64,000 nucleotides of DNA from Burkholderiaceae bacterium (GTDB taxonomy: Bacteria > Pseudomonadota > Gammaproteobacteria > Burkholderiales > Burkholderiaceae_E), in the NCBI GenBank assembly GCA_021463505.1, contig JAJTYR010000004.1, forward strand, positions 1-64,000, in the 5' to 3' direction. Every line of letters starts with the position of its first letter. Positions within the stretch are counted from its first letter, which is position 1. The position numbers were made by a program, and so were the translations under genes. A model generated the notes under the pieces. That model was not told the DNA's origin. It ran no database searches and was given only the letters and a program-made list of their open reading frames with translations. Below are positions 26,129-41,205 of this stretch, piece by piece.

Positions 26129-26532
26129 GGGGGGCGATTCTCGCCAACGACGATTCGGGCAGCCGGGGCAGAAGACGGCGGCGGTGGCTGGACGCGGCCG
26201 GCATTATGACATCGGTACACCTGCGCGACGCTCGCCTGGCTCGCGGTATATTGCGACGGGCCGACGCAGCAAACGTGCAGCGGATCATCCGGGATCAGGC
26301 GCCCGATGGCAGATCCAGGCATTACAGGTTCGATCATGACGGCGGATGTGGCGACAACGGGTGATCTCCAGACGCTGGAAACCCCGATGACGGCCACGCT
26401 GGAGGTCGTGCTGCACCAACACCGCTCGCCCGCGTGGCCCGCGGCCGGAACTTCCACCCGCTTCATTCACCCGCAGGCGGCCCGGCAGCGGGGCCCCATG
26501 CCATGACCCGCAAAGCACAGGAAGGGAACGAC
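26129..26532. other. Gene-poor stretch upstream of the SDR gene
   Basis: No recognisable gene is seen in these 404 bases. They must hold the promoters for the divergent DUF2064 and SDR genes. TATATT at 26247-26252 is the best -10-like box on the plus strand, but no good -35 box fits it. A 66-codon open frame (26306-26506) ends by overlapping an ATG at 26503, but it matches nothing I know. Confidence 0.4.
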
Positions 26533-27303
26533 GTGTCCGGCATCGAAGGCAAACACTGCGTGCTGACCGGCGGCGCCGGCAGCATCGGCCTGGCATCCGC
26601 CCGCCAGCTGCTTGCGCGCGGCGCCACGGTATTCCTCGTGGACCGCGACCCGGCGCTGCTCGATGCGGCGCGCCAGTCGCTCGTGGCCGATGGCTACGGC
26701 GCACGCATCGGCAGCGCCGCCGCCGACGTCAGCAACGCCCGCCAGACCCGGGACTACCTGGCGCAGGCGGTGGCGCGCGCCGGCCCGATCGATTTCCTCT
26801 TCTGCAACGCCGGCATCAACGGCGCGATCGTGTCCGTCACCGATTATCCGGACGCGCTGTTCGACGCCGTGATGGCGGTGAACGTGCGCGGTACCTTCCT
26901 GGCACTCAAGCACGGCCTGCCACAGATGCGCGACGGTGGCAGCGTGCTCGTGACCTCCAGCGTCATGGGCGTCACCGCCGACCCGGGCGTGAGCGCCTAT
27001 GCAACCTCCAAACACGCGCTGATCGGCCTGGTGCGCGTGGTCGCGAAAGAGGCCGCTGCGCGCGGTATCCGGGTCAACGCGCTCGCGCCGGGGCCGGTGG
27101 GCAACGCGTTCCAGGACGACATCGAGCGCCGACTGAGCCAGGTCGTGGGACGCGACGCCACGCGGATGCTCGACGAGGCGATCCCGCTGCATCGTCACGC
27201 GCAGCCCGACGAGATCGCGCGGATGGTGGTCTTCCTCGCGAGCGCCGACAGCAGTTTCTCCACCGGCAGCGTGTTCATGGCCGATGGCGGCATGCACATC
27301 TGA
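26533..27303 (+). CDS. Short-chain dehydrogenase/reductase
   Basis: The product of about 256 residues is a classical SDR. It shows the cofactor motif TGGAGSIGLA near residue 10, FCNAGINGA (NAG motif) and the catalytic SAYATSKHA (Tyr and Lys) with an upstream Ser. The C terminus FMADGGMHI is typical. NAD is favoured by the Asp in VDRDPA. The GTG at 26533 has the strong ribosome site AGGAAGGGA ahead; an ATG ten codons upstream (26503) is the alternative. The substrate is unknown; as part of the catabolic region it likely oxidises a secondary alcohol. Confidence 0.85.
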   Translation: MSGIEGKHCVLTGGAGSIGLASARQLLARGATVFLVDRDPALLDAARQSLVADGYGARIGSAAADVSNARQTRDYLAQAVARAGPIDFLFCNAGINGAIVSVTDYPDALFDAVMAVNVRGTFLALKHGLPQMRDGGSVLVTSSVMGVTADPGVSAYATSKHALIGLVRVVAKEAAARGIRVNALAPGPVGNAFQDDIERRLSQVVGRDATRMLDEAIPLHRHAQPDEIARMVVFLASADSSFSTGSVFMADGGMHI

Positions 27304-27316
27304 CGTGCCATCTGCG

Positions 27317-28774
27317 TCAGGCGCCCGGCACTTCCCCGGACAGCACGAGCTCCAGGCGTTCGGCGAGGCGCGTCGCCAGCGCCATCACGGTCAACGACGG
27401 ATTGACCGAGAGCGTTCGCGCAAGCAGTGACGCATCACCGACGAACAGACCCTTCACGTCGTGCGACTCGCAGTGGCGATCGACCACCGATCGCAGCGGG
27501 TCATCGCCCATCCGGCAGCCACCCTGCGTGTGCGTCGAGATGAGGCCGGTCCAGCAGACCTTCTTCGCACCCGCGGCCCCGAGTGCCTCGCGGCTGAAGC
27601 GCAACGCGCCATCGAGCCGTGCGCGCTCGGAAGGCTGCAGGTCGACCTCGATGTGCTCGCCTCCGTCGTTGTCGATGCTCACCGATGCGTTGTTTTCGTC
27701 GTTCACCATCGCGAGCAGGCCGTTCCAGTGCCGGTAGGCACGGACCGTCTCGACCAGTCGCGGCCCCCACAGCGGTCCGTTCGCGTCGCGCACGGTGGTG
27801 GCGAAGGCAATCGGGTCCATGATCGTCGAAGCCTCGATCACGAAACCGCCCGCATCGTCGGTCTGGAACTTCATGCAATGCGCGGTGATCGGATAGACCC
27901 GGTGCGCGTCCTGCGGATCGTCGAACAGACCATAGACGAGCCGCAGCGGATGCAGGCCGACATGCCGGCCGATCGCAGGGTTGGCCAGGCCGGAGCGCAG
28001 CAGCAGTTGCGGCGAATTCAGCGCGCCGGCGGCGACGACGACGAAGCGCGCGCGCGCAGCGTGCCGCTCGCCGGCAGCGTCGACGTACGCGACGCCGCGC
28101 GCCCGTGGCCCCCCCGGCGCGTCCGCGACGAGCACCCGTTCGACGCGCACGCCGGTACGCACTTCGAGCAGATCGCGCGACAGTGCCATGGCGATGTAAG
28201 TGTTCATCGTCGACTTGCCGCCGTCGGTGGGACACCCCTGCAGGCAGGACCCGTAGCTCATGCACCGCGCATCGGTGTACGAATGCACCGGCTGGAGTTC
28301 GGCGCCGAGCGCGCGGAATCCAGCCTGTACCGTGTGAACGCAGTTCTCCCAGTCGCCGCGCTCGCGCACGCCGAGCAGGTTCTCGACCCGCGTGTAGTAC
28401 TCGTCGAGATCGGCCAGCGCGAACGGTTCGCCGCGATCGTTGGTCAGGCCGCTGGCGGGATGCCACTTGGCGATGTCGCGCTCATGCGCGCGCAGCGCGA
28501 CCTTGGTGTTGATCGTGGTCGAGCCGCCGACGCATTTCCCCGAGAGAAAGATCATCGCGTCACCGCCGGGCAAGGCCGCGAAACGCAGCGGCCAGTAGAG
28601 GTCGTGCGTGGCCTTCGCCTCCCAGCGCCGGAAGTGCCCGGACGTGAGGTGGGGCCCGGCTTCGAGGAGCAGCACCTTGCGCCCGCACTGCGCGAGTTCC
28701 CCGGCGACGACGCCGCCGCCGGCGCCCGATCCCACCACGATCACGTCGAACCCGACGTCGGAACCGGCGTTCAT
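27317..28774 (-). CDS. GMC-family FAD oxidoreductase (gluconate/fructose dehydrogenase-like)
   Basis: The 485-residue flavoprotein begins with the FAD-binding VIVVGSGAGGGVVAGEL. It has CVGGSTTINTKVALR in the flavin-attachment region. The C-terminal active-site sequences are THTQGGCRMGDDP (His) and NPSLTVMALATRLAERL (Asn). Members of this branch oxidise polyols, sugars or alcohols and pass electrons to a cytochrome or quinone. The start at 28774 overlaps the stop of the upstream small gene by four bases, so the two form a pair. No signal peptide is evident. Confidence 0.85.
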   Translation of the reverse strand: MNAGSDVGFDVIVVGSGAGGGVVAGELAQCGRKVLLLEAGPHLTSGHFRRWEAKATHDLYWPLRFAALPGGDAMIFLSGKCVGGSTTINTKVALRAHERDIAKWHPASGLTNDRGEPFALADLDEYYTRVENLLGVRERGDWENCVHTVQAGFRALGAELQPVHSYTDARCMSYGSCLQGCPTDGGKSTMNTYIAMALSRDLLEVRTGVRVERVLVADAPGGPRARGVAYVDAAGERHAARARFVVVAAGALNSPQLLLRSGLANPAIGRHVGLHPLRLVYGLFDDPQDAHRVYPITAHCMKFQTDDAGGFVIEASTIMDPIAFATTVRDANGPLWGPRLVETVRAYRHWNGLLAMVNDENNASVSIDNDGGEHIEVDLQPSERARLDGALRFSREALGAAGAKKVCWTGLISTHTQGGCRMGDDPLRSVVDRHCESHDVKGLFVGDASLLARTLSVNPSLTVMALATRLAERLELVLSGEVPGA

Positions 28775-29148
28775 GGCTGTCCGATTCCAAGCCAGGACCA
28801 GTCGCGCCCGAGATCGACCGCGCGCGGCGGCTGGAAGCCGATCACGGCCCACGCGCCCGGTCCGTGCCGGCCCGGGGCGACGAAGTCGCTGTAATACGCC
28901 TCGATGGCAAGCGCGCGCACGAGGGCGAACCCGGGCGTGCGTTCGTGCCGGGCCAGCGCTTCGGGCGTGGCGGCAGCCGACAACGCGTCGATCGCGCGCA
29001 ACGCATCAGCGCGTGCAGCGGCGGGCATCGCGGCCAGGACTGCATCGATGTAGATCGCCGGGCCGATCCGCGCAGAGCCCGGCACGATCAGCTCGCACAG
29101 GACCTCCAGGGTGCCCGCACGTTGCGTGTCGAGGACCCGAAGAGTCAC
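28771..29148 (-). CDS. Small partner subunit of the GMC oxidoreductase (gluconate 2-dehydrogenase subunit 3-like)
   Basis: The 125-residue protein is mostly alpha-helical, with LVRALAIEAYYSDFVAP and GAWAVIGFQPPR near the C terminus. This resembles the end of gluconate 2-dehydrogenase subunit 3 proteins, which accompany GMC catalytic subunits. The 4-bp overlap with the GMC gene supports a complex. The family often has a Tat signal, but none is seen here if the GTG at 29148 is the start. That start is inferred from where the protein-like composition begins. Assignment is moderate. Confidence 0.6.
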   Translation of the reverse strand: MTLRVLDTQRAGTLEVLCELIVPGSARIGPAIYIDAVLAAMPAAARADALRAIDALSAAATPEALARHERTPGFALVRALAIEAYYSDFVAPGRHGPGAWAVIGFQPPRAVDLGRDWSWLGIGQP

Positions 29149-29186
29149 CTGCCGTCCTCCGATGCCCGCCACCGCGCGCCAGCACC

Positions 29187-29216
29187 CTTGTGACAGCGCT
29201 CGCGCAGCGGTAGGAT
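29187..29216 (+). promoter_or_regulatory. Possible promoter and autoregulatory site of the AraC-type gene
   Basis: A CTTGT...AGCGCTCGCGCA element (29187-29206) resembles the CTTGTCCGAAAGCGCATCGCGCA element in the shared promoter at 38.1 kb. TAGGAT (29211-29216) follows as a -10-like box, 21 bases before the start codon. Confidence 0.35.
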
Positions 29217-29237
29217 CGCGTGCCGAGGAGACGAGAA

Positions 29238-30188
29238 ATGAAACGCGAAGCGTTCGATACCCGCTCGCAACCGGAGGCGGCGCGTGTCGGTTTCTGGGAG
29301 CAGTCGACCCGGCGCTACTTCGGGCCGCTCGGCACGACGAACCTGGCGCCGCACGAATTCGAGGGGCGCTTGCTCGTCTATCACGCCGGCCCACTGCGTC
29401 TGTACACGATCGACGCGAGTGCGCACCGCATCGTGCGCGACCACGCCGGGATGGGCGATGCGGCCGACAGTTACAAGCTGCTCCTGCAGTTGCGCGGCGA
29501 AAGCGAGATCGAGCAGGGCGATGTCCGCGTCACGCTCAGAGCCGGCGACTGGAGCCTGTACGACCCGCGGGTTCCCTACTCGATCACGTCGCGCGAGGCG
29601 CTGCAGCACATGGTGGTGCACATTCCGCGTGAACGCCTGCGATGGCTGCCGGTGCCACCGCTGCACACCTGCGAGCCCGCCGACTCCGACCTGTCGAGCC
29701 TCTACAGCGTGCTGTCGAGTTTCCTTGCGTCGCTCTCCTCGCAACTCGAAACGCTGCCCGACGGCTGCGGAACCACGGTCAGCGAGGCGGCACTGGCACT
29801 GCTCGCCTCGACGCTTCAGGCCCGTCGCAGCGGCGCATCCGGGCCGCCGCCACTGCCGGAGGTGCTGCGCGTGCGGGTACGCCAGTACATCGAATCGCAC
29901 CTGGCGGACGATGATCTGACGATCGAACGCATCGCGCGCGACCTGCGCTGCTCGAAGCGCTACCTGCATCGCGTCTTCGAAGGCGGGGACATCACGGTCG
30001 AGCGCTACATCTGGCGTTTGCGCCTGTTGCGTTGCCGGCAGGCGCTCGAACGCAATGGCGCGGCGGCCGGTTCGATTTCGGCGACCGCCTACCACTGGGG
30101 CTTCAACAGCACCGCGCATTTCTCGCGCCTGTTCAAGGCACAGTTCGGCGTCACGCCCAGCGAGTTCGTGCGATCGCGCCCGCACTGA
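29238..30188 (+). CDS. AraC-family transcriptional regulator
   Basis: The 316-residue protein has an N-terminal beta-rich sensing domain of the AraC_binding_2 type (about residues 20-190; YKLLLQLRGESEIEQGD). The C-terminal double helix-turn-helix includes DLTIERIARDLRCSKRYLHR and AYHWGFNSTAHFSRLFKAQF, the classical AraC signature. The ATG is preceded by GAGGAG. It lies between the GMC pair and the catabolic operon and is the likely activator for the divergent operons whose promoter region contains AraC-like paired sites at 38.1 kb. Confidence 0.9.
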   Translation: MKREAFDTRSQPEAARVGFWEQSTRRYFGPLGTTNLAPHEFEGRLLVYHAGPLRLYTIDASAHRIVRDHAGMGDAADSYKLLLQLRGESEIEQGDVRVTLRAGDWSLYDPRVPYSITSREALQHMVVHIPRERLRWLPVPPLHTCEPADSDLSSLYSVLSSFLASLSSQLETLPDGCGTTVSEAALALLASTLQARRSGASGPPPLPEVLRVRVRQYIESHLADDDLTIERIARDLRCSKRYLHRVFEGGDITVERYIWRLRLLRCRQALERNGAAAGSISATAYHWGFNSTAHFSRLFKAQFGVTPSEFVRSRPH

Positions 30189-30258
30189 ACCGGCGGCGGA
30201 CCGCAGTGGGCGAGACGACCACGCGCGCGTCGCGCGCCTGCGCGCGGGCGTGCCGCCG

Positions 30259-31467
30259 CTACTTGCCACGCTGGTCCCAGCCCGGAGCGAGCCTGAGTTT
30301 CCAGCCGCCCTGCCGTGGCGGGTAGACCAGTTCGAGCTTGCCGTTCCACCACTGGTTGGCGGTGCTCGTGATCAGCCCCAGGCCGGCCGGGTCGAAGGTC
30401 ACGTCACCCTGCACCGTGCCCTTGAACTCACGGCCGGCGATCGCCTCGCGTATCGTCTTCGGATCGAGCGATCCGGTCTTCTCGATCGCTTTCAACAGCA
30501 CCTGCGCGTTGGCGTAGAACATGCCGACGACGACGCTCCCCTTGCCCTTGTCCTTCATGTAGCGCTCGCCCAGCTCCCTGGCACCCGGGTACGGCAGGTC
30601 CATCGACCAGAACCCGTCGGCGAGGATGTAGTTCGAGTCGGCACCGAGTGCCTCGTGAAACTCGTTGGTCCAGGTCCCCTTCCAGCCGTGCAGGTACGGA
30701 ACGCTGAAGTTCTGCTCCTTCATCTGGCGCACGAGGGTGATCGCGTCGGTGGGGTTGCCGAACAGCAGCAGCGCGTCGATGCCCTTCGCCTTCATCTTCA
30801 GGATGTACGACGAATAGTCCTTGGCCCCCATCGCCCACGGCTCGTCCATCGCGAACTTCACCTTGTGCTTCTGCGCCATCGCCTTGAAGGCGCCGCCGAA
30901 GCCCTGCCCGTCGGGCGAGTCTTCCATCACGAGCGCCGGGTTCTTCGGTCGCTCGTTCTCCGGCATCGACTGCCAGATCCTGAACGGAACCTCGGCGCCG
31001 CCACCGGCGTCGTAGAAGAACAGCGCCGACCACTTGAACTTTTTCGGCGTCCACATGTGCGGCCACATCGTGGTGATCATGTAGAACTTCCGGTACTTCT
31101 CGGCCGCCAGCGCGCCGGCCATGTTCAGGTCGCCACCGTGCGTCGACAGCAGCAGGTTGACCTTCTCGATCTTGATCAGCCGCTCCATTGCGTCGGTGAC
31201 CTTCGCCGGATCGCTCTGGTCGTCGGCGATCACCAGGCGCACCGGCAGCTTCCTGTTCGCCTCCTTGACGAAGATGCCGCCCTTCGCGTTCACGTCGGCC
31301 ACGGCGCGCTCGTAGGACCACTTCTGGTCGAGACCGTCGGGCGCCAGCAACCCGGTCATCGAGATCGGTGCCCCGATCACGATCTCCTTCGGTGCGGCGG
31401 GCGCCGCCTGCCACAGTGCCGCGCTCGCCACGAACGCGGCGGCCTTCCACCAGCCTCTCGTCTTCAT
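30259..31467 (-). CDS. Periplasmic substrate-binding protein of a Liv-type ABC transporter
   Basis: The 402-residue protein has a clear signal peptide (cleavage near AAPAAP) followed by a Peripla_BP_6 domain starting EIVIGAPISMTGLLAPDG. It binds the transported compound and delivers it to the LivHM-like permeases. It is the last gene of the leftward operon and its ATG overlaps the livM stop by four bases. The ligand is not known; linkage to aldehyde and GMC dehydrogenases suggests a catabolic substrate rather than leucine. Confidence 0.88.
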   Translation of the reverse strand: MKTRGWWKAAAFVASAALWQAAPAAPKEIVIGAPISMTGLLAPDGLDQKWSYERAVADVNAKGGIFVKEANRKLPVRLVIADDQSDPAKVTDAMERLIKIEKVNLLLSTHGGDLNMAGALAAEKYRKFYMITTMWPHMWTPKKFKWSALFFYDAGGGAEVPFRIWQSMPENERPKNPALVMEDSPDGQGFGGAFKAMAQKHKVKFAMDEPWAMGAKDYSSYILKMKAKGIDALLLFGNPTDAITLVRQMKEQNFSVPYLHGWKGTWTNEFHEALGADSNYILADGFWSMDLPYPGARELGERYMKDKGKGSVVVGMFYANAQVLLKAIEKTGSLDPKTIREAIAGREFKGTVQGDVTFDPAGLGLITSTANQWWNGKLELVYPPRQGGWKLRLAPGWDQRGK

Positions 31468-32492
31468 GCTCGTCTCCCTGGTTGTGCCCCGTCCTTCAGG
31501 GGCTGTTCGATGTCGCGCAGCAGCCGCTTCACCCCGGTCATCCGGCGAAGCGCGCGCCCCCCGCCCGCCATGCGCGCGCGCAGGATTCCGTTGGGCATGA
31601 AGATCATCACCAGGATGATCATCGCGCCCGAGAGGATCGGGTGCGCGGCCGGCAGCCAGAGCGTCGCCGCCGAGAACACGGCGGTCATCACGAACGCGCC
31701 GAGTACCGGGCCGAGCACCGTGCCGCTCGATCCCATCACGCACATCAGGACCGGATACAGCGTCCAGTTCAGGTTGAGGAACCCGACCGGACTCACCGCA
31801 AACACGTAGAAGGCGTAGAGGCTGCCCGCCAGACCAGCCATGAAGGCGCCGATCGAAAACGCCAGCACCTTGAACCACAGCACGCTCACGCCGCTGGCCG
31901 CCGCTGCCATCGGGTCCTCGCGCACCGCCATCAGCGCCAGCCCCAGCCGCGAGCGGGAGATCGCCCATACTGCGCCGGTGGCTGCGACCGCCAGTCCGAG
32001 ACCCACCAGGTAGTGCGGCGCCAGCGTGTCGAACACCGCGGGAGACATCGAGATGCCGAACGATCCGCCGGTGACGCTTCCACCCTTGACGAGCGCCACG
32101 CGCACGATCTCGCCGAACCCGAGCGTGCCGAGCGCGAAGTAGTCGCCGGCCAGCTTCGAGAGCAGCGGCACGCCGATCGCCGCGGCGCAGAGCGCGGCGA
32201 CGACGCCGGCGGCCAGCATCGCGAGCGGATTGAAGTAGAAGGTCTCGTCCGAAAGCAGGCGCGTCGCCACGATCGCCGTGGTGTACCCGCCGATGCCGAA
32301 GAACGCGTGCTGCGCCAGGCTGATCTGCCCCGCGTACCCTGCGACGAGGTTCCAGCTCTGCGCGAGCACGATGTGGACGAACACGAGGAACAGGTAGAAC
32401 GTGCCGTAGTGATCGAGCGCTCCCGGAACGAGCGGCACGCAGGCCAGCGCCGCGAAGAACGCAACGAGCAGGGCAAGTTGCCGCGCGGACAT
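31464..32492 (-). CDS. Branched-chain-type ABC transporter permease (LivM-like)
   Basis: The 342-residue integral membrane protein has about nine helices. It contains WNLVAGYAGQISLAQHAFFG and the conserved loop GLALMAVREDPMAAAASGV, typical of LivM. It pairs with the LivH-like protein encoded four bases upstream. The C terminus carries a basic cytoplasmic tail. Confidence 0.9.
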   Translation of the reverse strand: MSARQLALLVAFFAALACVPLVPGALDHYGTFYLFLVFVHIVLAQSWNLVAGYAGQISLAQHAFFGIGGYTTAIVATRLLSDETFYFNPLAMLAAGVVAALCAAAIGVPLLSKLAGDYFALGTLGFGEIVRVALVKGGSVTGGSFGISMSPAVFDTLAPHYLVGLGLAVAATGAVWAISRSRLGLALMAVREDPMAAAASGVSVLWFKVLAFSIGAFMAGLAGSLYAFYVFAVSPVGFLNLNWTLYPVLMCVMGSSGTVLGPVLGAFVMTAVFSAATLWLPAAHPILSGAMIILVMIFMPNGILRARMAGGGRALRRMTGVKRLLRDIEQPLKDGAQPGRRA

Positions 32493-32496
32493 CGAC

Positions 32497-33387
32497 TCAG
32501 ACCTTCTTCACCGAACGCACGAACAGGCCCTCGGGGCGGAACATCAGCACCAGCAGGAACACGAGATAGCCGGTCGCATCGCCCCAGCCGGGAATGAAGA
32601 ACGACGATCCGCTCTCGATGACCCCGAGCATCAGGCCGCCGGCGAGCGCACCGCCGACGTTGCCCAGACCGCCAAGCGCGAGCGCGATCAGCGCCTTCAG
32701 GCTGAACAGGAACCCGAAATACGGATCGATCGCGTAAGTGCTCGCCAGCGTGCAGCCAGCCACTCCGGCGAGCGCGATCCCGACGGCGAACGCGACCGTG
32801 TTGACGCGATGTGGCGAGATTCCCACCAGCGTCGCCGCGGTCATGTTCTCGGAGACGGCGCGCACGGCCTTGCCGACCAGCGTGTGTCGCAGGAACAGCG
32901 CGACGATCGCGGTAGCGAGCAGCGCGACCACGAACGCGATCGAGCGCGTGACCGAGATCGGCATGCCGGCGGCCTGCACGCTCGTCGCTGTATAGCTGGT
33001 CGTGATCGAGCGCGGATCCGGCGTCCACGCCACCGACATCAGGCTCTCGAGCATGAACATCAGCCCCACCGCGATGAGCAGCGAAGTGTTCTTGTCTTCG
33101 AGCGCCGCGGCGCGCCGGAACAGCAGCTGGTAGATCGCCGCGCCGACGGCAAGCGAAACCGGCACGAGCGCGATCATCGTCACGTACGGATCGACGCCGA
33201 GCAGCGTGAACGCCCAGTACGCCGCATAGCCGGCGAGTACGATCACCGCGCCCTGCGCGAGAAAGACGATGCGCATGGTCCCGAAGATCAGACTCAGCCC
33301 GATGGCGGCCACGCCGTACATCGCGCCGAACAGCAGCCCGTTGACGAGCAGCTCGCCGACCAGCCGGAAGGAGAGAATGTCGAGCAT
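32497..33387 (-). CDS. Branched-chain-type ABC transporter permease (LivH-like)
   Basis: The 296-residue membrane protein has about eight helices. LLFGAMYGVAAIGLSLIFGTM at the N terminus and TLVGKAVRAVSENMTAATLVG in the cytoplasmic loop are LivH signatures. The ATG at 33387 lies two bases after the livF stop; a TTG two codons upstream would overlap that stop. Confidence 0.9.
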   Translation of the reverse strand: MLDILSFRLVGELLVNGLLFGAMYGVAAIGLSLIFGTMRIVFLAQGAVIVLAGYAAYWAFTLLGVDPYVTMIALVPVSLAVGAAIYQLLFRRAAALEDKNTSLLIAVGLMFMLESLMSVAWTPDPRSITTSYTATSVQAAGMPISVTRSIAFVVALLATAIVALFLRHTLVGKAVRAVSENMTAATLVGISPHRVNTVAFAVGIALAGVAGCTLASTYAIDPYFGFLFSLKALIALALGGLGNVGGALAGGLMLGVIESGSSFFIPGWGDATGYLVFLLVLMFRPEGLFVRSVKKV

Positions 33388-33389
33388 CG

Positions 33390-34112
33390 TCAACCCAGGC
33401 TTCCGATGTAGGCCTTGCGGATCGCGGGGTCGTCGAGCAGTGCGCGCGCGCTGCCCTGCATCACCACGCGACCGGTCTGCAGCACGTAGGCCCGATCGGC
33501 GAGCTGCAGGGCCTGGTGGATGTTCTGCTCCACGAGCAGGATCGTCACCCCTTGCGCGTTGAGCGTGCGAACCAGCTCGAACATCGCGCGCACGACGATC
33601 GGACTCAGGCCGAGCGACGGTTCGTCGAGAATCAGCAGTGCCGGGTTGGCCATCATCGCGCGCCCGATTGCCAGCATCTGCTGTTCGCCGCCGCTCAGCG
33701 ATCCGGCCCTCTGATGGCTGCGCTCGCGCAGGCGCGGAAACATCGCGTAAGTGCGCCCGAGCGACTCGCGCATGTGCGCGCGCTGCTTTCCCGGATACGC
33801 GCCGAGTTCGAGGTTCTCGAGCACCGTCATCTGCGCGAACAGCCCGCGCCCCTCGGGCACGTGCGAGATCCCGAGCGCGACGATCTCCTGCGGGGCCACC
33901 CCGCGGATCGAACAGCCGCGAAAGGCTATCTCGCCGCGCGTGGCGCCGGCGAGCCCGGAAACCGCCCTGAGCAGCGTCGACTTGCCGGCGCCGTTGGCGC
34001 CGACCAGCGCGACGATCGTGCCCTCCTCGACGTGCAGGTCGACGTCGAACAGCACGCGCGCGTCGCCGTAGCGGACATCAAGCGCGCTGATCTCGAGCAG
34101 GCGTTTCGCCAA
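33390..34112 (-). CDS. Branched-chain-type ABC transporter ATPase (LivF-like)
   Basis: The 240-residue ATPase has Walker A GANGAGKST, signature LSGGEQQMLAIGRA, Walker B LLILDEPSLGL and the LivF-specific VEQNIHQAL. It appears to start at TTG 34112, preceded by GAGG, because no ATG or GTG occurs before the conserved domain begins. It overlaps the end of livG by 35 bases. Confidence 0.88.
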   Translation of the reverse strand: MAKRLLEISALDVRYGDARVLFDVDLHVEEGTIVALVGANGAGKSTLLRAVSGLAGATRGEIAFRGCSIRGVAPQEIVALGISHVPEGRGLFAQMTVLENLELGAYPGKQRAHMRESLGRTYAMFPRLRERSHQRAGSLSGGEQQMLAIGRAMMANPALLILDEPSLGLSPIVVRAMFELVRTLNAQGVTILLVEQNIHQALQLADRAYVLQTGRVVMQGSARALLDDPAIRKAYIGSLG

Positions 34113-34836
34113 GATAGGCCTCGATGACTCTCGGGTTGGTGACGACTTCGGCCGGCGTTGCGTCGGCGATCTTCTCGCCGTGATCGAGCACGACGACCCG
34201 GTCGCAGAGCTTCATGATTGCGTCGACCCTGTGTTCGACCCACAGCACGCAGATGCGCAGTTCGTCGCGAATGCGCCGGATCGTGCCGGTCATCTGTCCG
34301 ATCTCGGCGGCATTCAGCCCGGCCATCGGTTCGTCGAGCAACAGGACGGCAGGCTGCGTGGCGAGCGCACGGGCGAGCTCGAGCAGGCGCCGGTCCGACA
34401 GCGTCATGTGCGCAGCCAGTCGCGCGCCCTGGGCACCGAGCCCGACTCGTTCGATCGCCTCGTGCGCGACGCGCACGGCATCGGAGCGACCGCCGGAGCT
34501 GGCCTCCGGGCGGCCGTAGACGGCGCCGACCAGGACGTTCTGAAGGGCGGTCATCCTCTGGAATGTGCGCACGAGCTGGAAAGTGCGCGCGATGCCCAGC
34601 CTGCAGATACGTTCGGGCCGAAGGCCGGAAATGCGCTGGCCATGCAGCCGCACCTCGCCCCGGTCGGGTCGGTAGATCGACGTGACAACGTTGAAGCAGG
34701 TGGACTTGCCGGCGCCGTTGGGCCCGATCAGTCCGACGATCTCGTTGGCCGCCACCGAAAAATCGATGGCCTCGAGCACGTGCAGGCCGCCGAAGGACAC
34801 GCCGACTCCATCGAGGCGCAGGACTTCGGCATTCAC
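34078..34836 (-). CDS. Branched-chain-type ABC transporter ATPase (LivG-like)
   Basis: The 252-residue ATPase has Walker A GPNGAGKST, a LivG-type insert RTFQRMTALQNVLVGA, the signature-like LSDRRLLELARALA and Walker B VLLLDEPMAGL. The GTG start at 34836 overlaps the upstream GMC stop by four bases (GTGA). The signature is LSDRR rather than LSGGQ, which is common in LivG-type proteins. Confidence 0.88.
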   Translation of the reverse strand: MNAEVLRLDGVGVSFGGLHVLEAIDFSVAANEIVGLIGPNGAGKSTCFNVVTSIYRPDRGEVRLHGQRISGLRPERICRLGIARTFQLVRTFQRMTALQNVLVGAVYGRPEASSGGRSDAVRVAHEAIERVGLGAQGARLAAHMTLSDRRLLELARALATQPAVLLLDEPMAGLNAAEIGQMTGTIRRIRDELRICVLWVEHRVDAIMKLCDRVVVLDHGEKIADATPAEVVTNPRVIEAYLGETPARDQRA

Positions 34837-36506
34837 CGGGCAACCCCCATCGTGCCCGCAGCCCCCCGCGCAGCCGCGACGGTGTCCGGCACCGCCGACG
34901 CGTCGGGAACGCCTTCCAGCAGGAACTGCGCACAGCGCTCGGCGATCATGATTGTCGGAGCGTTCGTGTTGCCGCCGGGCAGCGCGGGCATCACCGAGGC
35001 GTCGGCGATGCGCAGTCCCGCGAGGCCACGCACGCGCAGGCGCGCGTCGACGACCGCCAACGCATCGGCACCCATGCGACAGGTACCCGCCGGATGATAG
35101 ACGGTCTTCGCCCGTTGCCGCACGTAGGCTTCGACTGCGGCGGCGTCGAAGGCCTGCGTGGCCGACGGCTCGAGTTCGGCGCTCACCAGCCGTTGCATCG
35201 CCGGCGCGCGCAGGATCCGGTGCGCCAGCCGCACGCCGCGCACCAGCGTGTCGACGTCTTCCTGCGCGCTCAGGTAGCCCCCATCGAAGCGGATCGGCTC
35301 CATCGGATCGGGGCTCGACAGGCCGACGCGACCGCGCGAGTGCGGCCGCAGGAAGCACGGATTGATCGACAGCCCGTGTCCCGGGTGCGGCTCGCGATCG
35401 ACGTCGCCGACGAGCACCGGCAGCACGTGGAACTGAAGGTCGGGGCGCCCTTCGCCGCGCGTGTCCACGAAACCGCCGCATTCGACGACGTTCGACGAGA
35501 GCAGTCCGCCACGCGTGGCGAACCAGCGCAATCCGTGCCAGAGCGCGCGCACACCGGTGTCATTGCCGGCGAGGCTGTGGGCGCGCCGCGAACGCCCGTA
35601 GACCCCCACCTCGAGATGGTCCTGGAAGTTCTCTCCGACGCCGGGAAGCTCGTGCACGACCGGAATGCCGAAGCGCTGCAACGCGGGCCCGGGCCCGATT
35701 CCCGACAGCTGGAGGATCTTCGGTGTCGCGAGCGCGCCCGCGGCAAGCACGATCTCCGAGCGTGCGGCGGCAACGTGCTCGCTGCCGTCGTCGGCACGCC
35801 ACGCGGCCGCGCGCGCCCGCCCCGCTTCGCAGTGCACGCGCAGCACATGCGCACCGGTGCGCACCGAGAGATTGGCTCGGTCGCGTACCGCCCGCAGAAA
35901 ACTCGACGCCGTGCTGTCGCGGCGGCCGCGGAACGTGGTGGTCTGGTAGAAGCCGACGCCATCCTGCCGCTCGCCGTTGAAGTCGTCGTTGCCCGGAAGG
36001 CCGATTTCGCGCGCCGCAGCCACGAAAGCGCGGCACAGCGGATGGCGATGGCGCGGATCGCTCACGTGCAGCAGGCCCTGATTGCCGTGCAGGGGCGCGC
36101 CCAGACGCTGGTTGCACTCGGAGCGCACGAACACGGGCAGTACGTCGCGCCAGCCCCACCCTGGGCAGCCAGCGTCGCGCCAGCCGTCGTAGTCGGACGG
36201 CGTGCCACGCATGTAGACCATCGCGTTCACCGAGCTGCCGCCGCCGAGCGTGCGTCCCTGCGGCACGTAGAGCGTGCGTGCACCGGCGTGCGGCTGGGGT
36301 TCGGTGCGGTAGACCCAGGTGCGCGCGGTGCCGATCAGGCGAACGAAGGTCGCGGGCATCCGTACGAACCAGGTGTCGTCGGGCGGCCCCGCCTCGAGCA
36401 GCAGCACGCTGCGCCCGGCGAGCGCAAGTCGCGCGGCGACCACGCAGCCGGCGCTGCCGCCGCCGACGACGACGTGATCGAAAGTCTCGTGGGGCCGAAT
36501 CGTCAT
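34833..36506 (-). CDS. GMC-family oxidoreductase (choline/alcohol dehydrogenase-like)
   Basis: The 557-residue flavoenzyme starts with the FAD site VVVGGGSAGCVVAARLA. It contains GGGSSVNAMVYMRGTPSDYDGW, the GMC signature GALATPKILQLSGIGP, and the active-site sequences YHPAGTCRMG (His) and GGNTNAPTIMIAERCA (Asn). Such enzymes oxidise primary alcohols (choline, alkanols, PEG-type ethers) to aldehydes. The start overlaps the aldehyde dehydrogenase stop (ATGA), which implies consecutive alcohol and aldehyde oxidation. The exact substrate cannot be read from sequence. Confidence 0.9.
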   Translation of the reverse strand: MTIRPHETFDHVVVGGGSAGCVVAARLALAGRSVLLLEAGPPDDTWFVRMPATFVRLIGTARTWVYRTEPQPHAGARTLYVPQGRTLGGGSSVNAMVYMRGTPSDYDGWRDAGCPGWGWRDVLPVFVRSECNQRLGAPLHGNQGLLHVSDPRHRHPLCRAFVAAAREIGLPGNDDFNGERQDGVGFYQTTTFRGRRDSTASSFLRAVRDRANLSVRTGAHVLRVHCEAGRARAAAWRADDGSEHVAAARSEIVLAAGALATPKILQLSGIGPGPALQRFGIPVVHELPGVGENFQDHLEVGVYGRSRRAHSLAGNDTGVRALWHGLRWFATRGGLLSSNVVECGGFVDTRGEGRPDLQFHVLPVLVGDVDREPHPGHGLSINPCFLRPHSRGRVGLSSPDPMEPIRFDGGYLSAQEDVDTLVRGVRLAHRILRAPAMQRLVSAELEPSATQAFDAAAVEAYVRQRAKTVYHPAGTCRMGADALAVVDARLRVRGLAGLRIADASVMPALPGGNTNAPTIMIAERCAQFLLEGVPDASAVPDTVAAARGAAGTMGVAR

Positions 36507-38041
36507 ACCGCCATGCAGACGCTCTTGAGCTCCGTGAACGACTCGACCGACGCGCGCCCCAGATCGTGCCCGACACCGGACTGGCGCATGCCTCCGAAAG
36601 GCAGCGCGTTGTCGAGCACGTTGTGCGAATTGACCCAGACGATGCCGGCGTCGAGCCGTGGAACGATGCGGTGGGCCGCCGACAGACTCCTCGTCCAGAC
36701 GCTCGCCGCCAGCCCGTAGCGCGTGTCGTTGGCCAGCCGCACCGCTTCGTCGACGTCGTCGAAGGTGGTCGCAGTGAGTACCGGGCCGAACACCTCCTCG
36801 CGCGACACCGAAGTGCGCGCCGAATCGTCGACGAAGATCGTCGGCTCGACGAACCAGCCAGCCTCGCCCGCGCGCACCCCGCCGGTGGCGAGCGTCGCGC
36901 CATCGAGGCGGCCGCGCTCGATTGCACGCATCACGCGCTCGAAATGGTGCGCCGACACGAGCGGACCGAGTTGCGTGTCCGGATCGAACCCCGATCCGAT
37001 GCGCAGCGCGCGCGCCGCGCGCACGAGTCGCCCGAGCAGGCGATCACGGACCCGACGCTGCACCAGCAGGCGCGAACTGGCCGTGCACACCTGTCCCTGG
37101 TGCAGGAAGATGCCACCGCAGATGCCCTCGGCCGCCTCGTCGAGATCGGCATCGTCGAGCACGATCGCCGGCGACTTGCCGCCCAGTTCGAGCGTGAAGC
37201 GCGCCAGGTTCTCGATCGCGCTGTGCCCCACCCGCTTGCCGGCTTCGGTCGACCCGGTGAACGAGATCCGACGCACCTGTGGATGAGCGGCCAGCGCAGC
37301 CCCCACCTCGGCGCCGCCGGTCACCACGTTGAGCGCGCCCGCCGGAAAGCCGGCCTCGATCGCCAGTTCGGCCAGACGCAGCGCCGTGAGCGGCGTCTCC
37401 GCGGAGGGCTTGAGCACCACCGTGCAGCCCGCAGCGAGCGCCGGCGCGACTTTCCACAGGGCAATCGCCAGCGGGAAGTTCCACGGCACGATGGCCGCGA
37501 CGACGCCAACCGGCTCGCGTCGCGTGAAGGTGACCCATTGCCGGCCAGGAATCCGGATCGAGTTGTCGATCGTCTGTCCCTCGAGCTTCGTTGCCCAGCC
37601 GGCCATGTAGCGGACGAACTCGGCGCCCCCCTCCACGTCGATGCGGCGCGCCACGCTTCTCAACTTGCCGCCCTGAAGCGTCTCGAGCGCGCTCAGTTCC
37701 TCGCCGTTGGTGCGCACGAGTTCGGAGAGCGCACACAACATCCGCTCGCGATCGGCCGGGCGCAGCCGCCTCCAGTTCGAGCGCTCGAAGGCCATTCGCG
37801 CCGAAGCGACCGCCACGTCGACGTCCTCGGCACTGCCCTCGGCAGCCTCGGCGATCGTCAACTCGGTGGCCGGATCGACGATCCGGCGGTAACGCCCCGC
37901 GCGCGGCACCTGCGAGGCGCCGTCGACGAAGTGGCCGAGCCGCCCGCGCAGCAGCAGCGGAATGCGTTCGAGCTGTTCGCGCGAAGCTCTGCGCAGATCG
38001 GATCCGGCGGGCGTGCCCAGGCCCGGGTTCAGGCTTGCCAT
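36503..38041 (-). CDS. NAD(P)-dependent aldehyde dehydrogenase
   Basis: The 512-residue enzyme is of the betaine-aldehyde/phenylacetaldehyde dehydrogenase type. It shows WNFPLAIALWKVAPALAAG, FTGSTEAGK, LELGGKSP (catalytic Glu285) and GQVCTASSR (catalytic Cys319). It would oxidise the aldehyde made by the coupled GMC enzyme. It is the first gene of the leftward operon. No ribosome binding site precedes the ATG, and the proposed promoter lies so close that the mRNA may be nearly leaderless. Confidence 0.92.
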   Translation of the reverse strand: MASLNPGLGTPAGSDLRRASREQLERIPLLLRGRLGHFVDGASQVPRAGRYRRIVDPATELTIAEAAEGSAEDVDVAVASARMAFERSNWRRLRPADRERMLCALSELVRTNGEELSALETLQGGKLRSVARRIDVEGGAEFVRYMAGWATKLEGQTIDNSIRIPGRQWVTFTRREPVGVVAAIVPWNFPLAIALWKVAPALAAGCTVVLKPSAETPLTALRLAELAIEAGFPAGALNVVTGGAEVGAALAAHPQVRRISFTGSTEAGKRVGHSAIENLARFTLELGGKSPAIVLDDADLDEAAEGICGGIFLHQGQVCTASSRLLVQRRVRDRLLGRLVRAARALRIGSGFDPDTQLGPLVSAHHFERVMRAIERGRLDGATLATGGVRAGEAGWFVEPTIFVDDSARTSVSREEVFGPVLTATTFDDVDEAVRLANDTRYGLAASVWTRSLSAAHRIVPRLDAGIVWVNSHNVLDNALPFGGMRQSGVGHDLGRASVESFTELKSVCMAV

Positions 38042-38050
38042 ATGCAACGC

Positions 38051-38197
38051 ACTGTACGTCGCCCCCCCTGGTGCCGCTTGTCCGAAAGCGCATCGCGCAT
38101 TGCACCGCGGCGCACGCCGGTGTGGCGCAGTGGTGCGCTTTCGGTGCACGCACAGTGCGCGCTCGGACAAGCCCGCGGGCGCGTGCACAACTAGACT
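38051..38197. promoter_or_regulatory. Divergent control region with symmetric AraC-type half-sites
   Basis: Site A CTTGTCCGAAAGCGCA (38077-38092) and site C (38156-38171, inverted) match at 14 of 16 positions. Site B, TGCGCTTTCGG (38134-38144), lies 22 bases from C in the same orientation. A degraded partner of A ends 22 bases from it at 38114. The -10-like boxes TACAGT (minus strand, 38051-38056) and TAGACT (plus strand, 38192-38197) each lie 20 bases beyond the outer site edge, so the outer sites would touch the -35 positions. This is the geometry of AraC-type activation. Confidence 0.6.
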
Positions 38198-38244
38198 GCG
38201 ACGCAATCGTTCCGACCGGCCCGTCCGGCGAGGAGCCGCACCCC

Positions 38245-39033
38245 ATGGACACTGCCCGTCCCACCGACTGGAAGAACTACGAGGACTTCGCAGCCGGCAT
38301 CGCCACCAACCGGCTGCCCGCCAGCGACGCGTGGGTCGGACGCACGTTGCGCCTGCGCTTTGGCGATCGCACCCTCGAACTGCAGCCGCGCGAGCGCCAC
38401 CTCGCAACGTGGCACGACGACCGCGGCTCCGGCGTCGACTGGTACGAGGCGATCGAACTGGCTCCGGACCTGCACTTCGTCGACCTGACCTTCGCCAGCC
38501 GTCCGACGGTCTCGCTCACGCTCGTCTTCGACACGGCAACGCGGCGCGCGCTGGCGATCGAGACGCGCGTACGCGAGGCCGCCGAGGCGTCCGGCGAACC
38601 GCGCCCCGTGCAGAGCTTCACGGCCGGCGTCTTCGGTGACGACGCATCGGCCGCCACCGGCCTCGTGCCGGCGCCCACGCGCGACCTGATCGGGCTGCGC
38701 ACACATCAGGTCTACAGCCCCCGACACACCTACGAGCACACCTACCTGAACTCGCAGCGCTACGCCTGGCAATGCCTGGTCGGCGTGCAGCGCGGCCAGG
38801 GCGACGTCGACCTCGCCAGCTATTACAGGTTCGCCGAGAACCGCTACGTGTTCGCGTTCCGCGAGTTCCTGATCCCGGTTGCATCGGTCTTCTTCTTCGA
38901 CTTCGAGCGCATGCGCTCGACCGGCAAGTTCCTCGGAATCACAGGTGACGGCACGATCGCCAACAACCCGGCCGGTGCATTCCTGCGCAAGGTCTCGATG
39001 ACCTTCTATCCGTCGGAAGCGCAGCCAGTCTGA
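38245..39033 (+). CDS. moaF: MoaF-family protein
   Basis: The 262-residue protein has a MoaF N-terminal domain (about residues 1-115; RLRFGDRTLELQP, HLATWHDDRGSGVDWYEAI). A MoaF C-terminal domain follows (QSFTAGVFGDD, YSPRHTYEHTYLNSQRYAWQ). Both look like lipocalin-type beta barrels that could bind a small ligand. MoaF was named from the monoamine regulon of Klebsiella; the common label molybdenum cofactor protein F is doubtful. GAGGAG precedes the ATG. It opens the rightward moaF-SnoaL-amidase operon. Confidence 0.82.
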   Translation: MDTARPTDWKNYEDFAAGIATNRLPASDAWVGRTLRLRFGDRTLELQPRERHLATWHDDRGSGVDWYEAIELAPDLHFVDLTFASRPTVSLTLVFDTATRRALAIETRVREAAEASGEPRPVQSFTAGVFGDDASAATGLVPAPTRDLIGLRTHQVYSPRHTYEHTYLNSQRYAWQCLVGVQRGQGDVDLASYYRFAENRYVFAFREFLIPVASVFFFDFERMRSTGKFLGITGDGTIANNPAGAFLRKVSMTFYPSEAQPV

Positions 39034-39069
39034 CCCCGGCACCCGCCACCCCGACTCGAGTCGCCTCCC

Positions 39070-39459
39070 ATGCGCATCCCCCGCGAAGTCGTCCAGGCCC
39101 ATTACGAGGCCGCCGCCACCGGCAATCTCGACGCGATGCTCGCCGACCTCGCCCCCGGCGCACGGTGGACCGAGGCGGCCGGATCCCCGCTCGCCGGCAC
39201 CTGGATCGGGCGCGAGCAGATCGTCGAGCGCGTGTTCGCGCCGATCGCGCGCGAATGGGAGGGCTACCGCTTCGAGCTCGAACGCCTCGTGGCCGATGGA
39301 CGCTGGGTCGTGGCGCTCGGTACTTACTCCGGAACGTATCGCCAGACCGGCAAGCCGATGCGCACACGCGTCGTGCACGCGTGGGAAATCGTCGACGGGG
39401 AGATCGTGCAGTTCGAGCAGTTCGTCGACACACAGAGCATGCGACAGGCCATGGCGTAG
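39070..39459 (+). CDS. SnoaL-like / NTF2-fold protein
   Basis: The 129-residue protein has the NTF2-like pattern: an N-terminal helix pair (VVQAHYEAAATGNLDAMLADL), then WTEAAGSPLAGTWIGREQIV, and strands ending with VHAWEIVDGEIVQFEQFVDT. Such proteins bind or isomerise small hydrophobic or polar molecules. No assured catalytic residue can be named. It lies 36 bases after moaF and 9 bases before the amidase. Confidence 0.8.
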   Translation: MRIPREVVQAHYEAAATGNLDAMLADLAPGARWTEAAGSPLAGTWIGREQIVERVFAPIAREWEGYRFELERLVADGRWVVALGTYSGTYRQTGKPMRTRVVHAWEIVDGEIVQFEQFVDTQSMRQAMA

Positions 39460-39468
39460 CATCGGGTC

Positions 39469-40974
39469 ATGATCGACCCGCGCGATCCGGCACCCCCGGC
39501 TCCCACCTCGCGTATCGGCATCCGCCCGTCACCTTCGAGCGAACTCGCCGCGCTCGGCCTGTGCCGGGCCGCCGAGGCCATTGCGCGTGGCGAAACCAGC
39601 TGCGTCGACTACGCGCTCGCGCTGCTCGCGGCCATCGAGCGCACGCGATCGACCAACGCGTGGCTGCACGTCGACGCCGGACGCCTGCTCGAGGCGGCCG
39701 CGCACGCCGACGACCTGCGCGACGGGTGCGGCCCGCTCCACGGCGTGCCGCTCGCCCTCAAGGACAACATCGACGTCGCCGGTGTGCCGACGACCGCGGG
39801 CAGCCCCGCCCTGAGAGCGCACGTGCCGCGGCGCGACAGTGTCGTGGCGCAGCGCCTGCTCGAAGCCGGTGCGTTGGTGCTCGGCAAGACGAACCTGCAC
39901 GAATTCGCGCTCGGCGTCACCTCCGACAACGCGGCGTTCGGTGCCGTACGCAACCCGCATGCGCCCGACCGGATTGCCGGCGGTTCGAGCGGTGGCGCAG
40001 CCGCCGCGGTGGCCGCGTTCGCCGCGCCTGCCGCGATCGGCACCGACACCGGTGGCTCGATCCGGATTCCGGCGGCACTGTGCGGCGTCGTCGGCTTCCG
40101 GCCGAGCACCGGCCGATGGCCGACCGACGGGATCGTGCCGCTTTCGTGGACACGCGACACACCGGGGCCGATCGCGCGCAGCGTGGCGGACTGCGCGCTG
40201 CTCGACGCGGTGGTCGTCGGCGGCGTCGTGCATCACGCTCGCGCACGCGCAGCACACGGTGCCGGCGCCACCACACCCGGTGCCGCGCGGCTTCGCGAAT
40301 TGCGGGTCGGGTTGCCGCCGCAGCGTTTTCTGGCCCCGCTCGACGCCGGACTCGCCGAGGTCGTCGACGCGGCACTCGCATGCTTGCGGGCAGCCGGCGC
40401 CACGCTCGTGCCCTGCGAGATCGACGACGTCGACGCACTCACGCACGCAACCGGCATGACGATCGCGCAGCACGAAACGCCACAGGCATTGCGCGCCTAT
40501 TTCACCCGTCATGCGCTCGCGTTCGATGCCGCAGCGCTCGTCGCGGCGATCGCGAGCCCCGAGGTTCGCGCCGCCTTCGAGGACATCTTCCGCGACAGCC
40601 CGATCCGCGCAAGCACCTACCGGCGCGCGATGCGCGACCTCCGGCCGGCGCTGCAGCGCGCGTGGCAGCGCTGCTTCGAGATGCACCGGCTCGATGTGCT
40701 GCTGTACCCGACGACCGCGCTGCCGGCGGCGCGCATCGGCGAAGAGTTCGTACAGATCGGCAACGAGCGCATGCCGGTGTTCTTCGCATACATCCGCAAC
40801 ACCGAACCCGGAACCGTGGTCGGCGCGCCGGGACTGTCGCTTCCGGTCGGCGCGACGCGATCAGGACTTCCCGTGGGGCTCGCCGTCGATGCGCGACCGG
40901 GCGACGACGGGCATCTGCTGCAGGTGGGAATGTCGCTGGAAGCCTGCTTCACCGCGGGCCCGGCGCAACGCTGA
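39469..40974 (+). CDS. Amidase (amidase signature family)
   Basis: The 501-residue enzyme hydrolyses an amide to acid and ammonia or amine. The Ser-cisSer-Lys triad is visible: Lys98 in PLALKDNID, Ser173 in GGSSGG and Ser197 in TDTGGSIR. Family relatives include indoleacetamide hydrolase and GatA, but gatB and gatC are absent nearby, so a tRNA role is unlikely. Last gene of the moaF operon; it suggests that the pathway substrate or an intermediate contains an amide. Confidence 0.9.
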   Translation: MIDPRDPAPPAPTSRIGIRPSPSSELAALGLCRAAEAIARGETSCVDYALALLAAIERTRSTNAWLHVDAGRLLEAAAHADDLRDGCGPLHGVPLALKDNIDVAGVPTTAGSPALRAHVPRRDSVVAQRLLEAGALVLGKTNLHEFALGVTSDNAAFGAVRNPHAPDRIAGGSSGGAAAAVAAFAAPAAIGTDTGGSIRIPAALCGVVGFRPSTGRWPTDGIVPLSWTRDTPGPIARSVADCALLDAVVVGGVVHHARARAAHGAGATTPGAARLRELRVGLPPQRFLAPLDAGLAEVVDAALACLRAAGATLVPCEIDDVDALTHATGMTIAQHETPQALRAYFTRHALAFDAAALVAAIASPEVRAAFEDIFRDSPIRASTYRRAMRDLRPALQRAWQRCFEMHRLDVLLYPTTALPAARIGEEFVQIGNERMPVFFAYIRNTEPGTVVGAPGLSLPVGATRSGLPVGLAVDARPGDDGHLLQVGMSLEACFTAGPAQR

Positions 40975-41027: not shown

Positions 41028-41106
<79 letters not shown>

Positions 41107-41205
41107 GCGTCGAAGTATACCAGCGCGCATGCCACCGGCGGTCCGCGCATGCCACACTGCAGGGTCCCGACGCGCGTCGTCCGGCCGCGGCGCAGGAGCC
41201 CTTGC

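Follow-up and report, generated by a model that had tools for sequence, protein, structure and literature searches.

What does a bacterium take up and oxidise when an aldehyde dehydrogenase (ALDH), an alcohol dehydrogenase and a complete Liv-type transporter share one operon, and a second operon starting with MoaF faces it? This question is raised by the first 64,000 nucleotides of contig JAJTYR010000004.1 from a Burkholderiaceae bacterium (assembly GCA_021463505.1). The stretch, below called the window (64 kb, 68.5% GC), is part of a 3.58-Mb draft genome in 120 contigs that is 97.7% complete. We suggest, with a probability of about two thirds, that the cluster is a peripheral side-chain route, which imports a (hydroxy)phenylethyl compound, oxidises it to an arylacetate and feeds the ring cleavage of homoprotocatechuate (hpa). 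The pathway is real and conserved and has apparently not been described before, but as a peripheral route for aromatic ethyl side chains it is not a categorically new system.

Gene content of the two operons

The minus-strand operon consists of seven genes. It starts with the ALDH (36503..38041; PF00171, 554 bits), followed after a 4-bp overlap by a GMC-family alcohol dehydrogenase using flavin adenine dinucleotide (34833..36506; PF00732 and PF05199). The LivG-type ATPase (34078..34836) has a GTG start at 34836 and overlaps the stop of the GMC gene by 4 bp, and the LivF-type ATPase (33390..34112), provided that its TTG start is correct, overlaps LivG by 35 bp. Next come the open reading frames of a LivH-type permease (32497..33393; 4-bp overlap, again provided that the TTG start is correct) and a LivM-type permease (31464..32492; 4-base gap to LivH), and finally a periplasmic binding protein (30259..31467; PF13458, 145.6 bits) that overlaps LivM by 4 bp. 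Tail to tail with the binding protein gene, on the plus strand, lies an AraC-family regulator (29238..30188).

The facing operon, on the plus strand, contains the two-domain protein MoaF (38245..39033; PF10703, 88.6 bits, and PF17409, 135 bits, both over cut-off), a SnoaL-like protein with an NTF2 fold (SnoaL_2, 39070..39459; PF12680, 73.8 bits) and an amidase (39469..40974; PF01425, 357.9 bits). Both the gene content and the coordinates of this arrangement agree with the original prediction, an earlier reading of the window that had proposed one catabolic system.

Conservation of the gene set

When one genome per species was scanned with two MoaF peptide patterns, 44 named loci were obtained. 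These represent one MoaF branch, are mostly from Burkholderiales and Rhizobiales (Mesorhizobium, Bradyrhizobium) and cover up to 10 kb on each side of MoaF; 33 of them are at least 20 kb long. Partner counts rest on tblastn, with identity thresholds of 40-50% chosen for this analysis. The nearest named carriers of the cluster are Burkholderiales metagenome assemblies.

The recurring core consists of GMC, a MoaE-type short-chain dehydrogenase/reductase (SDR), MoaF and SnoaL, usually accompanied by an ALDH, a Liv transporter and a FeaR-like regulator. Among the loci of at least 20 kb, GMC is present in all 33, the core SDR in 32 and SnoaL in 31. ALDH is found at 45% identity or more in 25 of these loci (32 if any ALDH above 100 bits is counted), an AraC/FeaR-like match above 60 bits in 24, and LivG of at least 50% identity in 22. 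Two relatives from the same genus as the window, L013 and L014, keep both operons in the same order with 66-91% protein identity. LivG is 84% identical in L013 and 74% in L014, LivF 79% in both, LivH 86-91% and LivM 79-86% in L014/L013, and the AraC protein is 70% identical at the same place in L014. Since the operon order is kept in these two relatives and the core, sought in other genomes as the original prediction had proposed, recurs in 44 named loci, the association between the genes is more than chance.

A binding protein is present in 30 of the 33 longer loci. It belongs to type 1, the type of the window, in 22 loci and to type 2 in 8, and both together never occur. The two types share 31% identity over 86 residues (E = 1.6e-6), i.e., they are distant relatives and not orthologues. 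That two types go with the same enzymes but never side by side supports the earlier idea of one catabolic system with a dedicated importer. Branched-chain amino acid uptake, which the original prediction had regarded as incompatible with its proposal, is rejected as the role of the importer, as the binding protein reaches only 62.2 bits with the LivJ-type model, far under the cut-off of 477.

The cluster could also be read as a generic alcohol or aldehyde detoxification system or a glycol-ether pathway beside which a branched-chain amino acid importer happens to lie. The GMC and ALDH families are broad, and no NCBIfam cut-off is reached, which would suit such a reading. However, the importer lies inside the same tight operon, one of the two binding protein types is found in 30 of the 33 longer loci, and the FeaR, StyD and hpa context described below also argues against it; we consider this explanation highly improbable.

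The amidase is differently distributed. A system for the degradation of amides or amines, built around this enzyme, would be in line with its co-directional position 9 bases behind SnoaL, its presence in L012 and L013, and its score with the indoleacetamide hydrolase model, which narrowly misses the cut-off (528.6 of 532). However, it is absent from the same-genus L014, and only 3 of the 44 loci contain it at 40% identity or more. Such a system, to which the original prediction leaned, is therefore very unlikely in our judgement, and a defining role of the amidase is not supported. Where present, it could convert an arylacetamide to the same arylacetate that the rest of the route is predicted to form.

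The core SDR is a homologue of the Klebsiella MoaE (50-52% identity in the three loci compared), and in the SDR tree, where many forks are unresolved, the sequences from Klebsiella and Azoarcus are placed among those of the core. Of the 44 loci, 42 contain it at 50% identity or more, and three same-genus relatives (L012-L014) carry it between ALDH and MoaF, but beside the MoaF of the window it is absent. L013 and L014 thus differ from the window by an extra SDR, and L014 also by its lack of the amidase. The best ten matches to the core SDR in the own genome are only 31-38% identical. The SDR at 26503 was rejected as a moved copy, given its 33-38% identity and very long tree branch. As no MoaE-type SDR stands at this place while the relatives have one, the window has a slightly shortened form of the recurrent gene set, with a lineage-specific amidase added. 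The SDR step would in the window be carried out by another SDR, or would not be needed.

As a separate observation, the window keeps the promoter elements of L012-L014 without their MoaE-type SDR, which looks like a gene loss.

A control region shared by both operons

Between the two operons lies a divergent control region of 203 bp (38042..38244), whose elements are common to the three relatives L012-L014. The 16-base motif TGCGCNNTCGGACAAG has two perfect copies in the window, both in this region, and no third. One, TGCGCTTTCGGACAAG at 38077..38092 on the minus strand, faces the ALDH operon, and the other, TGCGCGCTCGGACAAG at 38156..38171 on the plus strand, faces the MoaF operon. The region contains an inverted repeat with arms at 38076-38092 and 38156-38172, and a related half-site at 38133, 22 bases upstream of the MoaF-facing copy, adds a direct repeat with a spacing of 22 bases. 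This spacing is usual for AraC-family sites.

When three mismatches are allowed, the window contains 10 motif matches against an average of 16 in shuffles. Because these matches do not exceed the shuffles, the case for joint control depends on the two perfect copies and on the fact that they are conserved. Separate regulation of the two operons, which had been put forward as a finding that would speak against a single system, is not borne out; the motif pair instead shows signs of joint control. We infer that the AraC protein (29238-30188) regulates both operons via this motif.

Similarities of the proteins and a proposed route

NCBIfam matches under their cut-offs (StyD, FeaR, indoleacetamide hydrolase, LivJ) are used here as pointers, not as names. 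The best NCBIfam model for the ALDH is the StyD phenylacetaldehyde dehydrogenase (NF045735; 634.9 bits, cut-off 850), and its best PDB match, 4o5h, is also a phenylacetaldehyde dehydrogenase. The AraC regulator scores 170.7 of the 199 needed with the FeaR model PRK09685, and two regulators of L062, a Rhizobium-type locus, are likewise nearest to FeaR and under cut-off. The original prediction also drew a parallel to polyethylene-glycol and alkanol pathways; the best family matches lie instead with StyD and FeaR, and the genes in the company of the cluster are those of hpa. The GMC protein obtains 528.9 of 605 with PRK02106, and among solved structures it is closest to the choline dehydrogenase 9lq0, followed by the chloramphenicol oxidoreductase 8b7s. 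The motifs ELGGK and GQxC in the ALDH, YHP and NxN in the GMC protein, and KxN and GGSSGG in the amidase are all intact.

The following route can be proposed. The Liv-type ABC transporter would import a phenylethyl-type compound, most likely para-hydroxylated, with an arylethanol (tyrosol, hydroxytyrosol), an aryl glycol or an aryl-ethanolamine derivative as candidates. The GMC flavoenzyme would oxidise the side-chain alcohol of the arylethanol type to an arylacetaldehyde, which the StyD-like ALDH would convert to the arylacetate. The resulting (hydroxy)phenylacetate would be converted to 3,4-dihydroxyphenylacetate, the substrate for cleavage by HpaD and further degradation by HpaEFGHI, whose genes lie elsewhere in the genome. 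Acting at the shared region, the FeaR-like AraC protein would activate both operons. Side chains that are not open to direct oxidation by GMC and ALDH may be remodelled by MoaF, SnoaL and, in relatives, the MoaE-type SDR; these three proteins are the unexplained centre of the pathway. What the sequences themselves establish is the gene content, the conserved core, the motif common to both operons and the association with hpa, both in position and across genomes. In soil and the rhizosphere, phenylethyl compounds are widespread in the form of plant phenylethanoids and biogenic amines, and many rhizobial plasmids carry the clusters.

Association with the homoprotocatechuate pathway

In the own genome, HpaD_Fe reaches 449 bits (cut-off 316) within hpaR-G-E-D-F-H-I on another contig (C58), and PaaK is also over cut-off. 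The homogentisate route was rejected as an outlet, as no hmgA/HmgA match is found in the 97.7% complete draft. In B. xenovorans LB400, hpa has been described as a route for 3- and 4-hydroxyphenylacetate (PMC3053370).

The physical association is seen in 29 Rhizobium-type plasmid records that carry a MoaF 52-58% identical to that of the window; they are mostly from one genus and not independent. Positions of hpaD were taken from 60 of 121 hpaD records (these include a sister replicon from the strain of NZ_CP023000, but not NZ_CP023000 itself). Among the matches listed, the distance between MoaF and hpaD is 5.7-27.6 kb in at least 26 of the 29 records; if hpaD were placed at random in these 26, about two would be expected within 28 kb. 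A 27th record, NZ_CP084753, has hpaD about 1.8 kb from MoaF, and a 28th, CP140838, carries hpaR, an hpaF-like gene, gabD, an hpaG-like gene, hpaH and hpaI in a single island; the incomplete table has a blank stretch between these genes, and hpaD itself is not annotated. In the five Rhizobium-type regions that were opened (L061, L062, L063, L091, L093), the SDR-MoaF-NTF2 genes are found with AraC genes, a Liv importer, an ALDH and hpa genes. A GMC gene is present in three of them (L062, L063, L091) and not annotated in L061 and L093. In L061 a 4-hydroxyphenylacetate hydroxylase adjoins the cluster.

The association also holds at genome level. An HpaD of either type is over cut-off in 38 of 43 MoaF genomes (15 by TIGR02298, i.e., HpaD_Fe, and 26 by TIGR02295), these being the genomes of the 44 loci without L047. 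Of 119 Mesorhizobium genomes, 28 have MoaF, 55 HpaD and 27 both, so that HpaD is present in 27/28 MoaF carriers versus 28/91 genomes without MoaF (Fisher p = 1.8e-10). The HpaD_Fe model alone looked poor in this genus; the second family, TIGR02295, changed the picture. In Burkholderiales, HpaD_Fe is found in 13/16 MoaF carriers versus 11/57 non-carriers (p = 9e-6). The carriers are the own genome, L012-L024, L026 and L053, of which L017 and L023 are titled only Pseudomonadota/Proteobacteria; the non-carriers are 57 of 61 relatives, including G056, in which MoaF_C gives a weak match of 23 bits.

In an observation apart from these counts, the two HpaD types (the TIGR02298 and TIGR02295 models) occur in different lineages with the same MoaF cluster: L081 (9548-10396), L061-L063 and L055.

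An arylacetate need not come from a phenylethyl compound. Another aromatic side chain, such as that of a phenylpropanoid alcohol, a lignin-derived aryl diol or a tropate-like hydroxy acid, could also end as phenylacetate, with hpa as one outlet and PaaK/phenylacetyl-CoA as another. PaaK is over cut-off in the own genome, five of the 43 MoaF genomes are without HpaD over cut-off, and the second-best solved match of the GMC protein is the chloramphenicol-inactivating oxidoreductase 8b7s, which presumably acts on an aryl-propanediol. Further, NTF2-fold lyases act on lignin dimers. However, the physical and statistical link to hpaD speaks against this explanation, which we regard as unlikely, if still to be taken seriously.

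A number of observations also weigh against the phenylethyl route that we prefer. No NCBIfam model of the ALDH, GMC, AraC or amidase proteins reaches its cut-off, and the core SDR is missing in the window. The window is without hpaD, and when both HpaD types are tested, L055 is the only one among the 44 named loci to hold it. HpaB was not found on the hpa contig C58 or in the window, the rest of the genome not having been searched, and no motif match with fewer than 3 mismatches lies near the hpa genes of the own genome. The five MoaF genomes without HpaD over cut-off are L013, L016, L025, L052 and L053; in L016 there is a fragment at a contig edge and in L052 a match of 199 bits, under cut-off. 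L013 lacks it though it belongs to the same genus and has the enzymes, the importer and the amidase. In the own genus (18 genomes) MoaF is found in 4, HpaD in 7 and both in 3, which is not significant (3/4 versus 4/14, p = 0.14). Finally, the Fisher tests ignore phylogeny, and a genomic association is not an activity.

A possible activity of MoaF

The name MoaF derives from the monoamine regulon. It is misleading in that it suggests the molybdenum cofactor, and a role in this cofactor was rejected, as the gene sits in a catabolic operon. The branch studied here is now tied to a GMC, a MoaE-type SDR, SnoaL, an importer and one ring-cleavage pathway, which narrows the search for the MoaF reaction to a small number of phenylethyl compounds. 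The hint to monoamines that the original prediction took from MoaF leads to a related chemical family, that of aromatic ethyl side chains. In the titles and abstract beginnings that were searched, there is no description of the gene set or of a MoaF activity, literature beyond that not being excluded. A MoaF promoter plasmid appears in a list in work on a LuxR solo (PMC8546723), and in PMC11540253 the name MoaF is used for something else.

The solved homologues of MoaF (4q51) and of the SnoaL-like protein (3ec9, 3grd) are all uncharacterised. Across nine MoaF members, 29-69% identical to that of the window, 28 residues are invariant. They include Tyr157, Tyr163, Glu164, His165, Arg206 and Glu207 and look like an active site.

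The N domain of MoaF scores 37.6 with the profile of phenolic acid decarboxylase (PAD), compared to a mean of 12.1 and a maximum of 21.5 in 100 column shuffles. The C domain scores 17.5, under its shuffle maximum of 27.2; its alignment is in the expected register, with MoaF Glu207 opposite the invariant Glu64 of PAD, though this score lies within the shuffles. A profile comparison between the 30-sequence MoaF alignment A2 and PAD gave no support, and the PDB profile match of MoaF to a PAD (8adx, E = 0.6) is not significant.

It can be speculated that MoaF is no accessory protein but a calycin-type, PAD-related enzyme, which would make a quinone methide with the help of the para-hydroxyl and in this way remove the benzylic hydroxyl of aryl glycols or aryl-ethanolamines to give an arylacetaldehyde directly, while MoaE and SnoaL would handle stereochemistry or tautomers. 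We consider this specific scheme improbable. If it were true, MoaF could be the gene for synephrine dehydratase (EC 4.2.1.88), to our knowledge an orphan activity whose reaction has no assigned gene.

Neighbouring genes and companion modules

The remaining genes that the original prediction had included are probably not part of the system. The SDR at 26503..27303 (plus strand) has no counterpart at 45% identity or more in any of the 44 loci, and the same is true, at 40% or more, for the second GMC (27317-28774) and its small partner (28771-29148), which occupy 27317..29148 on the minus strand. The one-substrate interpretation thus stands as far as a single system, its importer and joint control are concerned, but its gene list, with the amidase, this SDR and the second GMC pair, was too long. 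The small partner is similar to subunit 3 of gluconate 2-dehydrogenase (23.2 bits, just under the cut-off of 23.4), and the pair gives the impression of a two-subunit dehydrogenase of its own, with a link to the cluster in 0/44 loci. Directly behind the amidase lie a tRNA-Pro (41028-41104) and then a flavin amine-oxidoreductase-like protein (41197-42903).

An APH-type kinase and a class III enzyme dependent on pyridoxal phosphate are found near MoaF in L062 and in Paenarthrobacter aurescens plasmid pTC2 (L064), and by annotation also in L091 and L093. In pTC2, the pair lies in the same 25-kb stretch as a MoaF. The best solved match of the L062 class III enzyme is the phospholyase 5g4i, which is the pTC2 protein itself (full 446 residues, 989 bits). 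By analogy, kinase and phospholyase could convert an aryl-ethanolamine to an arylacetaldehyde, and a literature on phenylethanolamine kinase/phospholyase exists. The pair was not found in the 64-kb window by tblastn and is a companion module, not the same system. Such neighbours fit the idea that the islands collect several entry routes for phenylethyl compounds.

Other genes also recur near MoaF clusters: a Tm-1-like protein (UPF0261), a HAD hydrolase and a further class III aminotransferase in L023, L024, L062 and L091. Beside the Acidovorax soli cluster (L026, 482-6382) there is a thiamine pyrophosphate enzyme, which we take to resemble benzoylformate decarboxylase, with three genes of about 350 residues; the two of these that were tested have no Pfam match at E 1e-5.

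Comparison with known systems

One of the closest known systems is the monoamine (moa) regulon of Klebsiella aerogenes. It has an SDR (MoaE) followed by MoaF, as in the relatives of the window, and a MoaF with both MoaF domains is also encoded in the window (PF10703 88.6 bits, PF17409 135 bits). In the Klebsiella locus (L066), moaE-moaF have arylsulfatase genes as neighbours, together with a gene whose annotation is monoamine regulon regulator. However, its MoaF is only 30% identical to that of the window, the window is without MoaE at this place, and no GMC, Liv transporter or SnoaL is annotated in the 16.7 kb of L066.

The cluster stands beside genes of the hpa meta-cleavage pathway in all five opened Rhizobium-type plasmid regions. 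It differs from that pathway in that the window cluster has no ring-cleavage gene, and hpa is on another contig in the own genome.

With the phenethylamine (feaR-feaB) and styrene/phenylacetaldehyde (StyD) systems the cluster shares a FeaR-like regulator and a phenylacetaldehyde-dehydrogenase-like ALDH, both under cut-off. In contrast to these systems, the described genes of the window include no amine oxidase or styrene gene, and the first step would instead be the oxidation of an alcohol by the GMC enzyme.

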